Assembly: GCF_024006985.1 (NCBI RefSeq)
Contig: NZ_JAMXIB010000002.1
Span: 1 to 64,000, forward strand
From: Robiginitalea marina
GTDB lineage: Bacteria > Bacteroidota > Bacteroidia > Flavobacteriales > Flavobacteriaceae
DNA: 64,000 nt
Reading direction: 5' to 3'
The translations under genes were made by a program, and so were the position numbers. This document shows, piece by piece, positions 24,199 through 27,917 of the stretch. How positions within the stretch are numbered: the stretch's first letter is position 1; every line of letters starts with the position of its first letter. The notes beneath the pieces were generated by a model. It did no database searches. It worked only from the letters and a program-made list of their open reading frames with translations, and had not been told where the DNA came from.

Positions 24199-24738
24199 TC
24201 AGAAAGAATACTCGGGAACCCGGCCTACCACGCCTTTAAAAAACTCCCGATACCCCGCATAGTCTTTCTCATAATCGCCCGTGGGGGTTTGGGGTTCTGA
24301 AATGCGTATGGTCCGGCTGCCATAGTCAAAAGCTACCAGGACGATGGGAACCTGCGCAGCCTGGGCGATGTAATAGTATCCCGTGCGCCAGCGCTCGACT
24401 TTTTTACGGGTCCCTTCAGGGGAAAGGGCCAGGCGGAATTCTTCGCGCTCCCTGAAAATATCGGCAATGGCCTGTACGGTGTCGCTGCTTTTGGTACGTT
24501 CTACCGGGGTCCCCCCCATCCACCGGAAAAACCAGCCAAAGGGCCCTTCGAAAAGGCTTTTCTTACCAATGTAATGGATGTCGGTACCCACCACCCTGCG
24601 GATCAGGAGGCCGAGTAAGAAATCTACCCAGTGGGTGTGGGGGACAACAATGACCACGCACTTGTCGACGTTCGGGAAACTTCCCTCCAGGGTCCACCCC
24701 AGAAGGCGATAGTAGATAAAAGAGGCGATGGCCTTCAT
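24199..24738 (-). CDS. PlsC-like acyltransferase
   Basis: A 179-residue glycerolipid-type acyltransferase with the H(x4)D motif HTHWVD and the acceptor-binding LSPEGTRKK; GGTPVERTK is also typical. It is shorter than PlsC (about 240) and lacks a strong N-terminal membrane anchor. It is the last gene of the kdsB operon, 12 bases after kdnB, so it may acylate a lipid or a Kdo-region amine rather than lysophosphatidate; that is inference. No essential motif is missing. Confidence 0.82.
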   Translation of the reverse strand: MKAIASFIYYRLLGWTLEGSFPNVDKCVVIVVPHTHWVDFLLGLLIRRVVGTDIHYIGKKSLFEGPFGWFFRWMGGTPVERTKSSDTVQAIADIFREREEFRLALSPEGTRKKVERWRTGYYYIAQAAQVPIVLVAFDYGSRTIRISEPQTPTGDYEKDYAGYREFFKGVVGRVPEYSF

Positions 24739-24750
24739 ACCCTTTGGGGC

Positions 24751-25872
24751 TTAGATTTTTCGATAAATATCCTTGATGCGTTCGGGCCCTACCTGCTCCC
24801 TCCATCCTTCGCCCAGGGCGTTTTCCCAAAGGGGCTCCATCTCAAGGGCCACCTGTGCCATAAGGTCGAGTTCTTCCTCGGGCAACCCGGAGCAAAAGCC
24901 CTCCGGCAAAACAATCCCCTGTTTTTTCATCATCCTTTCGAAAAGCCGTACCCCTTCGGGGTAGAATTCAGACAAATGCTGAAACACCAGGCAATTCCCC
25001 AGGCCATGGGGAATATGCAACACATAGGACAGGCCGTAACTCAGGGCATGGGCAACCCCCACCTGGCTGTAGGCGATGCTCATGCCCCCGTGCCAGGAGG
25101 CCATCATCAGGTTTTCGCGGCTTTCCTCCGGGGAAAGGTCGCCAAGGAATACCTCCTGGCATAACTCCATGGCCTTTTCCCCGTAACTCCGGCTAAACGC
25201 ATTGATATAGCCTCCATTCAGCGATTCGACGCAGTGGATAAAGCAGTCCATCCCGGTGTAGAACCATTGTTCCCTGGGGACCCCCAGGGTAAGGTCCGGG
25301 TCGAGGACCACCTGGTCGAAAGGGGTATGGTCCGAATTGATGCCCAGCTTCCGGTCGGGGCCAAGCAATACGGTGGTACGGGAAACTTCAGCCCCGGTCC
25401 CACTCAGGGTAGGCACCCCGACATGGTATACTGCGGGGTGGCGGACCAGGTCCCAGCCCTGATAGGCCTCGGTGGGGCCTTCATTGTTGATCATAATGGC
25501 GACAGCCTTGGCCAGGTCGAGCAGGGTCCCCCCCCCTATGCCCACAATCCCTGAAGGCGGATAAGGGCTTTCAGAACGAATCCTTCGCACCAGGGCATCC
25601 ACCTGTCCGGTCCGGGGTTCCTCCCTGGCGGAAATCAGGATGATACGGTCTTCCATTATGGCAGGGATGCGACCCATCAGGGTTTTTCCCTCGAAGACAT
25701 CATCGACCAGGAAAATCATGGGGGCCTGGGCATGCTTGCGGGCTGGCAGCAGGATTTCCCCCAACTGGTCGAAGCAGCCCGACCCGAATATTACCCTGGG
25801 GACCATGGGGAAATTCCGGTATTTGGTACCCTTCAGGGCGGCGCTGACATTCGTTTGATCCTTCAATTTCAT
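24751..25872 (-). CDS. kdnB: KdnB-like 3-deoxy-D-manno-octulosonate 8-oxidase
   Basis: An iron-containing alcohol dehydrogenase of 373 residues: GIGGGTLLDLAKA binds NAD, PTLSGTGAEVSRT is family-typical, and the metal ligands are in GMDCFIHCVES, GVAHALSYGL and IPHGLGN. Clustering with kdsB in the same operon points to KdnB, which oxidises the C8 hydroxyl of Kdo before KdnA transaminates it to 8-amino-Kdo. KdnA is absent from the operon, so the gene could have another alcohol substrate. The gap to the HAD gene is four bases. Confidence 0.78.
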   Translation of the reverse strand: MKLKDQTNVSAALKGTKYRNFPMVPRVIFGSGCFDQLGEILLPARKHAQAPMIFLVDDVFEGKTLMGRIPAIMEDRIILISAREEPRTGQVDALVRRIRSESPYPPSGIVGIGGGTLLDLAKAVAIMINNEGPTEAYQGWDLVRHPAVYHVGVPTLSGTGAEVSRTTVLLGPDRKLGINSDHTPFDQVVLDPDLTLGVPREQWFYTGMDCFIHCVESLNGGYINAFSRSYGEKAMELCQEVFLGDLSPEESRENLMMASWHGGMSIAYSQVGVAHALSYGLSYVLHIPHGLGNCLVFQHLSEFYPEGVRLFERMMKKQGIVLPEGFCSGLPEEELDLMAQVALEMEPLWENALGEGWREQVGPERIKDIYRKI

Positions 25873-25876
25873 AGCA

Positions 25877-26572
25877 TCAGATTAAATACCTTAGCAGTTC
25901 CCTGAGGCTGGGAAGGGTAAGGTGCTCATTGTTGTGCAGGTGCGGTTCCACCTCTTCGTGAGCCCAGGTCGTGTGAAAGGGGACATGGATGGCCCGGGCC
26001 CCGATGTTCAGGATAGGGAGGACATCTGATTTCAGGGAGTTCCCCACCATTAGGAATTCATCCACCCCGATTTCAAGGTGGTCCAGCAATCGGCGGTAGT
26101 TGTCCTCCTTCTTATCGCTGAGCACTTCCACATGGTGGAAGTATTGTATCAGCCCCGATTTTTCAAGTTTGCGCTCCTGGTCCAGGAGATCCCCCTTGGT
26201 GAGCACCAGCAGGCGGTATTTGTGGTGGAGGGCCTCCAGGACCTCTGCAACCCCGTCGAGCAGTTCCAACGGGTGGGCAATCATGTTCTTCCCGATCTGC
26301 AGGATGTGGGCCAGGGTACTCTGGGAGACCTGCTGGTTGGAAAGTTCCAGGGCCGATTCAATCATGGAAAGCATAAACCCTTTGATGCCATATCCGTACA
26401 GGTCCAGGTTTTGCATTTCCTTCCTGAAAAGTTCCTGGTCAATGGTGTTCTTGGTTTCATAGGGTTCGAGCAGGGCGGCAAATTCCTCCTCCGCCTCCCG
26501 GAAGTAGGTCTCATTTACCCACAGGGTATCATCGGCATCAAAACCAATTGTGGTTATGTTTTCGAATTTCAT
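25877..26572 (-). CDS. HAD-family hydrolase
   Basis: The 231-residue protein has HAD motif I as GFDADDTLW, motif II LVLTKGD, a lysine region near SDKKEDN and motif [12 protein letters not shown], with a helical cap in between, as in C1-type phosphatases of the YjjG sort. It is not the short KdsC form, though KdsC-like 8-phosphatase activity would fit the operon. The ATG at 26572 overlaps the kdsB stop as ATGA; an ATG at 26578 is also possible. Substrate unknown. Confidence 0.83.
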
Positions 26573-27303
26573 GTCCATGCTGCCTTGGCCCGTTCCAGGT
26601 CCTCCGGGGTATCGATCTCGATGCCCGTAACCCTTGTTTCCACCATTTTGATCTTTTTCCCGTACTCAAGGTACCGGATGGCTTCAATTTTTTCCACAGT
26701 TTCCAGGGGTTGCATCGGCAGGTTCCTGAAATCGAGCAGGGCCCGTTTTCGGAAAGCGTATACCCCCTTATGCTTGAAATACCGTGCTTTTGGCTGCTCC
26801 GCCCGCTGGTACGGGATGGGGGCCCTTGAAAAATACATGGCAAAACCCAACCGGTCCGTAATGACCTTGACGGTATTCGGGTCGCGGATTTCATCGGCAT
26901 CAGAGATTTCGGTCATCAGGGAAGCCAGGTCAACCTCCTCTTTCGGGTCTTCCCTGAACACCTGGAGGAGCTTCTCCAGACTTTCCCGTTCCGTAAAGGG
27001 TTCATCGCCCTGCACGTTGACTACAAGGTCCACCTCGAGGCCCTCCACGGCTTCGGCTATCCGGTCACTTCCCGTTTCATGGGCCTCCCGGCTCATCATC
27101 ACCTTTCCACCTTCCTTCCTGATAGCCCCGGCAATTTCTTCGCTGTCGGTAACCACCAACACCTCATCGAAAAGCCCGGTGCCCAGGGCGGCCTCGTAAG
27201 TCCGTACGATGACGGGTTTCCCCCCCAGGTCTTGCATCAGTTTTCCCGGAAACCGGGAGGCGGCGTAGCGCGCCGGGATCATGGCTATGGTTTTCAAACG
27301 CAT
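26569..27303 (-). CDS. kdsB: CMP-Kdo synthetase (3-deoxy-manno-octulosonate cytidylyltransferase)
   Basis: The 244-residue protein opens with [18 protein letters not shown], the CTP-binding signature, and contains [10 protein letters not shown] and HKGVYAFRK. It activates Kdo with CTP for lipopolysaccharide assembly. The reading frame is open for another 500 bases upstream, but homology begins at ATG 27303, which lies 20 bases after a TATTTTTG box. First gene of a four-gene operon continuing through HAD, kdnB and the acyltransferase. Confidence 0.95.
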
Positions 27304-27344: not shown

Positions 27345-27917
27345 TCAATCTCCCCGGCGATGCGGCCTTAGTTTCCGGTAGATCCGGAACACAAATACCA
27401 GTACCACGATCACCAGCAAGGCCGCCAGTACAGGGGCCAGCACGGCGGCCAGGCTCAGGGTCGTTGCCGTGGCGGTCTCCACGGCGGCTATAGCCGGGTT
27501 GGCAAGCCCCCCGGTCCCCGCCGAAGATACCAGCCTGCCCCCTGTAGCGGCCCCTTTGATAGCCGTTGCCGTGCCGCCCCCGGCGATGATCGCCAGGCTC
27601 CAGGTAACCACCGGATCCATCCCGGCGAGGGTGGATACCACCACCGCGGTCCCCGCCAGGGCGGCCAGGGGAAGGGCCAGCGCATCGAGGAGGTTGTCCA
27701 CCAGGGGTATAAAATAGGCGAAAAGTTCGGCTACTGTCGCCACTCCCAGGGTAATCAGGGCGGGCAGGCTCCCCATCCAGGCCCATTCCGGGTTGAGTTC
27801 CCACAACCCGGCGTAGGATGCCAGGGAAAGGGCAAACAGGGGAAGGAATACCCGAAATCCGGCAGATGCCGCCAGCCCGATCCCCAGGAAGACGCTCATT
27901 ATCGTCTCTGCGGTCAT
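27345..27917 (-). CDS. DUF4126-type membrane protein
   Basis: A 190-residue integral membrane protein of four to five Ala/Gly/Val-rich helices with a basic tail ([13 protein letters not shown]). The N-terminal [19 protein letters not shown] and the central [19 protein letters not shown] match the DUF4126 family of unknown function. It ends 41 bases before kdsB, on the same strand, and begins 26 bases after the helicase gene. Confidence 0.82.

Follow-up and report, generated by a model that had tools for sequence, protein, structure and literature searches.

The 64-kb window analysed here, a stretch of 64,000 nucleotides of the Robiginitalea marina genome (contig NZ_JAMXIB010000002.1, GC content 55.4%), contains an operon of four tightly packed genes in the order kdsB-HAD-kdnB-PlsC-like on the reverse strand at 24199-27303. 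The operon very probably belongs to a complete pathway for 8-amino-3,8-dideoxy-Kdo (Kdo8N), split among several loci, in which the CMP-Kdo synthetase KdsB is adapted to the amine by a glutamate, Glu229. Kdo8N is the amino version of 3-deoxy-D-manno-octulosonic acid (Kdo), the sugar joining lipid A to the remaining outer-membrane lipopolysaccharide (LPS). In the route that we predict from sequence, KdsA and KdsC would provide free Kdo, KdnB would oxidise its C8 to an aldehyde, and KdnA, encoded on another contig, would transaminate that aldehyde. The KdsB of the window would then use CTP to activate Kdo8N, so that it can be transferred to lipid A and enter the LPS, and Glu229, next to the metal site, may be what suits it to this sugar. 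The HAD and PlsC-like proteins would be operon neighbours with no required part. All of the pathway enzymes are encoded in the genome with similarity of orthology grade, and the metal ligands and the pyridoxal phosphate (PLP) lysine are intact; the kdn genes co-occur across the phylum, and Glu229 co-varies with them.

The identity of KdnB (24751-25872, reverse strand), a member of the iron-containing alcohol dehydrogenase superfamily, was examined by comparison with the PDB. The protein matches 5k8c, the Kdo 8-oxidase of Shewanella, with 428 bits (E 3.9e-127, 52% identity) and 3rf7, annotated merely as 'iron-containing alcohol dehydrogenase', with 436 bits, and the next kind of iron-containing alcohol dehydrogenase scores 92 bits. 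The Asp-His-His-His metal ligands are all kept. Fourteen NCBIfam models of iron-containing alcohol dehydrogenases also match, the best with 118 bits against a cut-off of 700, and no KdnB model is among them. An ordinary NAD(P)-dependent iron-containing alcohol dehydrogenase was rejected on the drop from 428 to 92 bits, a judgement by similarity and not by a tree. By this comparison the protein is correctly named.

KdnA was sought by a PF01041 search of the same genome (11 matches, 4 of them strong) followed by comparison with the PDB. It lies on contig C11 at 234376-235563 and matches the Shewanella KdnA 5k8b with 459 bits over residues 1-394, the next match scoring 185 bits; a genome lacking KdnA is thereby ruled out. 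Its PLP lysine is kept, the lysine in FDYVKTITCGEGG aligning with Shewanella FDSVKTITCGEGG. KdsA (TIGR01362, 380.5 bits, cut-off 314) and KdsC (TIGR01670, 117.1 bits, cut-off 106.95) are likewise present outside the operon. In three loci of the window's family (L143, L145, L150) kdnA is found between genes labelled, by reading, as nitroreductase-like and riboflavin-synthesis-like. Because these neighbours agree, the split between kdnA and the operon looks inherited. An earlier note on this DNA had described a kdsB-HAD-kdnB-acyltransferase operon devoid of KdnA and had taken KdnB and KdsB together as pointing to 8-amino-Kdo. The four genes are confirmed at their positions by profile and PDB matches, none of them is KdnA, and the family comparison places KdnB with the Kdo 8-oxidase, as named in that note, and not with ordinary alcohol dehydrogenases. 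The note's first alternative, that KdnA is encoded elsewhere, was right, and the genome search that it proposed for KdnA, KdsA and KdsC finds all three.

The distribution of these genes was surveyed in one draw of 395 Bacteroidota genomes. KdnB (E≤1e-60) is present in 30. KdnA-like matches at the same threshold occur in 106, with a gap in score between 268 and 333 bits, and the line for KdnA was placed inside this gap after it had been seen. All 26 genomes with KdnA of at least 333 bits also hold KdnB. The remaining four KdnB genomes, G118 and three of a group termed f18, lack a KdnA above this line. The genes are also neighbours in relatives: kdnA-kdsB-HAD-kdnB is contiguous in G029 and kdnA-kdsB-kdnB in G320, G196 and G389, and a kdnA-kdnB pair is found in G146, G249, G385, G091 and, with a small intervening reading frame, G190. 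In G367 a natural fusion of 614 amino acids (L111:5939-7780) carries KdsB and then KdnB in one frame.

A closer inspection of these neighbourhoods yielded further observations. The G367 fusion gene adjoins a PlsC-like gene, and KdnA is elsewhere in that genome. The five kdnA-kdnB pairs (L123-L127) are of a divergent type, with KdnBs 45-47% identical to that of the window and metal ligands intact. Two f18 loci (L129, L131) place a KdnB-like gene, with no KdnA, in surface-polysaccharide clusters beside genes that read as NeuB-like and CMP-sugar-synthetase-like; these KdnB-like proteins could possibly oxidise a nonulosonate. G118 (L128 / L039) has the KdnB ligands D-Q-R-H, where the other 29 KdnBs of the phylum and Shewanella have D-H-H-H. 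It has no KdnA at the cut-off and a KdsB with Gly at the site of Glu229, its operon being otherwise conserved, and to judge from these sequences it looks like a decayed pathway and a natural control.

The window KdsB (26569-27303, reverse strand; TIGR00466 195 bits, cut-off 155, and PDB KdsBs) is predicted to be of the 8-amino-Kdo type, and it is the single KdsB match in its genome at E≤1e-15. KdsBs were compared in 80 chosen genomes of the phylum (30 with KdnB and 50 without), of which 79 had a match; the fiftieth kdn-negative genome, G013, had none. One column splits the groups completely. It is that of Glu229 (codon 26617-26619, reverse strand), two residues before the metal-binding Asp231. 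Glu occupies this site in 21/21 KdsBs from genomes with the main KdnA/KdnB type and in 0/50 KdsBs from 49 kdn-negative genomes. Forty seven of the latter (46 genomes) have Gly (31), Ala (11), Ser (3) or Asn (2), and the three read afterwards have Ser, Gly and Gly. The seven KdsBs of the three f18 genomes have Gly, Ala or Ser. This co-variation of Glu229 with the pathway is new here. A second candidate mark was the Gln of the LEQLR motif (IEAIR in the window), which is Cys, Ala or Pro in 21/21 kdn-positive relatives. It was rejected as a sign of specificity, Cys or Ala also being found in 11/47 negatives and Gln being kept in Shewanella.

Wider tests used genomes from outside this draw. A scan of named genomes with the KdnB alignment confirmed at least 574 relatives, and 80 loci were kept. 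These include 14 Shewanella loci, others from Thiomicrospira and its relatives, many Desulfobacterota, one Cloacimonadota, two Verrucomicrobia, one Pseudozobellia and two Maribacter; the Pseudozobellia and Maribacter loci have the same gene order as the window operon. KdnA of at least 250 bits lies within the fetched stretch at 56 of the 80, and KdsB above 60 bits at 36 (13 of them Shewanella), all 36 with Glu. Beyond these, KdsB matches below 60 bits were seen at L334 (a broken frame) and L336 (IEIDTP, and so Glu). A second test took the genomes of 41 of the remaining loci, L285 (a cut-off Shewanella locus) being left out; 40 of them, without that of L325, were searched. KdsB was found in 36, and 35 of these 36 have one or more with Glu (33 by alignment, 2 by reading of the motif). 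None of the five divergent KdsB paralogues in this second set has Glu, the residue being Gly or Ser. In the PDB comparison, which matched 13 sequences, the five KdsB alignments listed (four different proteins) all have Gly at the site.

Five kdnB genomes (L380, L381, L382, L379, L375) carry such a second, more divergent Gly/Ser KdsB beside one of the Glu type. Two kinds of KdsB in one genome suggest, as read from the sequences, that Kdo and an amino-Kdo are activated by different enzymes.

The history of the residue was followed on a KdsB tree of 100 rows, built with the Glu column excluded and with 13 near-duplicate named loci and seven extra or divergent KdsB copies left out. Bacteroidota KdsBs with Glu sit among Flavobacterium-like KdsBs with Gly, far from the Glu clade of Shewanella, Thiomicrospira and Desulfobacterota. 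The minimum number of changes on this tree is seven for Glu and nine for kdnA, every named kdnB locus having been entered as kdnA-positive although KdnA reached 250 bits in the fetched stretch at only the 56 given above. Forcing the 44 Glu rows into one clade costs 168 log units, and a single Glu clade is rejected (approximately unbiased (AU) test, p-AU 5e-6).

The position of Glu229 offers a possible reason for this pattern. In PMC2901514, Asp225 of KpsU is described as a magnesium ligand. Asp231 of the window KdsB aligns with this Asp225 and Glu229 with KpsU Gly223, which places Glu229 beside the active site. In a predicted model of the window KdsB (mean predicted local distance difference test score, pLDDT, 92) the loop 223-232, which precedes the last helix, contains both residues; an arrangement of the two on the same face of a strand was dropped on the strength of this loop. 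Most likely Glu229 adapts KdsB by pairing with the 8-ammonium group of the sugar, and an ion pair of this kind would explain most simply why it co-varies with the pathway.

Several points weigh against this account. The six KdsBs of the five genomes with divergent pairs (G249, G190, G146, G091, G385) have Cys, Ser or Thr instead of Glu. The column was singled out after about 244 had been scanned. In the second test a Glu KdsB served as the query, which favours matches of the Glu type, and even so one kdnB genome, G434 (L342 / L383), has a single KdsB match with Ser, the sole exception in that set. The group for the AU test was chosen after the residue had been seen. Well-supported branches of the tree leave three independent pairs when the divergent type is excluded, all three as expected (p 0.25), and four when it is included, of which 2.5 agree, none oppose and 1.5 show no difference; significance by independent pairs was given up, the supported pairs being too few. 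Furthermore, an S. oneidensis deletion mutant of the Kdo8N pathway is reportedly viable, and its KdsB would therefore not be strictly specific for the amine. Lastly, Glu229 may be an extra metal ligand, or mark a change of the loop, and its co-variation with the pathway be indirect, for instance through altered catalysis where the nucleophile or the binding pose is poorer. The magnesium ligands given for the N. meningitidis CMP-Neu5Ac synthetase, D209 and D211, have the spacing of Glu229 and Asp231 (PMC2901514), so that metal, and not the amine, may be what Glu229 binds, and both window residues share the one predicted loop. However, PMC2901514 equates D209 with K-CKS Asp98, a residue already present in KdsBs (Asp100 in the window, invariant in the alignment), and Glu tracks the main KdnA/KdnB type across phyla, which would not be expected of a general catalytic role. 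We regard this explanation, the chief rival of the ion pair, as possible but improbable.

The other two genes of the operon were examined for a link to the pathway. The HAD-IA phosphatase-like protein (25877-26578, reverse strand, 233 amino acids) matches PF00702 with 55.9 bits. Its nearest models are TIGR02253 (54.7 bits, under the cut-off of 169.75) and YjjG, where it is also under the cut-off. The PlsC-like short acyltransferase (24199-24738, reverse strand, 179 amino acids) matches PF01553 with 44.6 bits. Counted at E≤1e-20 in the same 395 genomes, HAD is found in 73 (18/30 with KdnB, 55/365 without) and PlsC-like in 99 (18/30 and 81/365). Of the 41 genomes of the window's family, 12 have kdnB; HAD is present in 11/12 of these and in 25/29 of the kdnB-negative ones, and PlsC-like in 12/12 and 25/29. 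In 11/12 of the family's kdnB-bearing genomes HAD is next to kdsB, and in 11/12 PlsC is next to kdnB. Of 13 kdnB-negative relatives examined for PlsC, six (G057, G068, G084, G142, G289, G335) have it on the strand of kdsB and no more than 2.5 kb away from it; of 11 examined for HAD, two (G088, G312) have it adjoining kdsB. HAD was not found at E≤1e-20 in G367, which has both kdnA and kdnB. In G029, which also has both, PlsC is 227 kb distant from kdnB. G118 retains HAD and PlsC despite a KdnB short of two metal ligands. Since the two genes are near kdsB in kdnB-negative relatives and are kept in G118, we assign them to the surroundings of kdsB and not to the kdn pathway; their spread and neighbourhoods rule them out as kdn-specific enzymes. 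An acyltransferase co-occurring with the kdn genes fails on the same counts, given the PlsC-like genes of the 81 KdnB-less genomes and the distant copy in G029.

A part in the supply of Kdo is still conceivable for HAD, which might be a second Kdo-8-phosphate phosphatase giving free Kdo beside KdsB and KdnB. Its place between kdsB and kdnB fits this, as does its position beside kdsB in the kdnB-less G088 and G312. Yet a KdsC above its cut-off is already in the genome, HAD often lies at a distance from kdsB and was missed in G367 at the threshold above, and its substrate is not readable from the sequence; we think such a role rather unlikely. Less probable again is a role of KdnA and KdnB in making another amino-ulosonate or a capsule sugar, with plain Kdo kept in the LPS. 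The f18 clusters, where KdnB-like proteins occur without KdnA near a gene read as NeuB-like, and the two kinds of KdsB in some kdnB genomes would agree with it, against which the only KdsB of the window genome at E≤1e-15 is of the Glu type and kdnB is in one operon with kdsB, the two even being fused in G367. It is highly improbable that HAD and PlsC-like replace KdnA or modify the product, for example to an N-acylated 8-amino-Kdo, as the earlier note had also suggested: their tight packing and the 11/12 adjacencies favour it, but both genes are common without KdnB, are found near kdsB in kdnB-negative genomes and are retained in G118, and KdnA is present on C11, so nothing supports a replacement of KdnA or an acylation of the amine.

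The predicted split-locus Kdo8N pathway compares most closely with that of Shewanella oneidensis. The window KdnB and the C11 KdnA match their counterparts over the full length (428 and 459 bits), with ligands and PLP lysine kept, and the 13 Shewanella KdsBs read share with the window KdsB the Glu two residues before the metal Asp. In Shewanella, however, kdnA, kdnB and kdsB are together, whereas here kdnA is on another contig, the neighbours are HAD, PlsC-like, DUF4126 and RecD-like genes, and KdsB groups on the tree with other Bacteroidota KdsBs and not with those of Shewanella. Ordinary KdsBs (E. coli KdsB 3k8d, KpsU 1gq9) agree with the window protein in family, fold class and the residues Asp231, Gln98, Asp100, Arg160 and His178, and differ in having Gly in place of Glu229. 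The Flavobacterium-like genomes G335, G084, G289 and G057 have KdsBs 62-64% identical to that of the window and a RecD-like/kdsB/plsC-like neighbourhood, but KdnA and KdnB were not found in their search and their KdsB site is Gly. What is new about this predicted pathway is where it occurs and that its genes are dispersed; its kind is known.

Passages of two structural papers, PMC6357163 and PMC3210612, call Kdo8N a hallmark of Shewanella or a linking unit peculiar to it, PMC6357163 giving its C8 carbon a shift near 44-45 ppm, and the Shewanella section of PMC4052302 states that it is confirmed in 'other bacterial species'. Among the literature titles and abstracts searched, most subscription papers being beyond scope, none dealt with Kdo8N in Bacteroidota or with a KdsB residue for it. 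It seems to us an evenly balanced question whether Kdo8N is a widespread inner-core sugar, predicted for Bacteroidota, sulfur-oxidising Gammaproteobacteria, Desulfobacterota and further groups, for which KdsBs have repeatedly gained an acidic residue recognising the 8-ammonium. If this is true, entry of Kdo8N into LPS would be governed by CMP-Kdo synthetases with an acidic residue by the metal site, and Glu or Gly there would predict from a genome an amino-sugar or a plain-Kdo LPS linker. The KdsB site would then be a one-residue test for which sugar is activated, allowing inner-core chemistry to be read from sequence. Many marine and sediment bacteria would bear a positive amine where lipid A meets the core, a junction at which an amine would bear on membrane charge and LPS recognition.

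The genes of the operon are separated by -10 bp (an overlap, kdsB/HAD), 4 bp (HAD/kdnB) and 12 bp (kdnB/PlsC-like). Upstream of kdsB, within one gene run with it, is a gene for a DUF4126 membrane protein (27345-27917, reverse strand; PF13548, 155.5 bits), for which no role is proposed and whose position is kept among relatives. A gene labelled RecD-like from reading alone is also close upstream of the operon.

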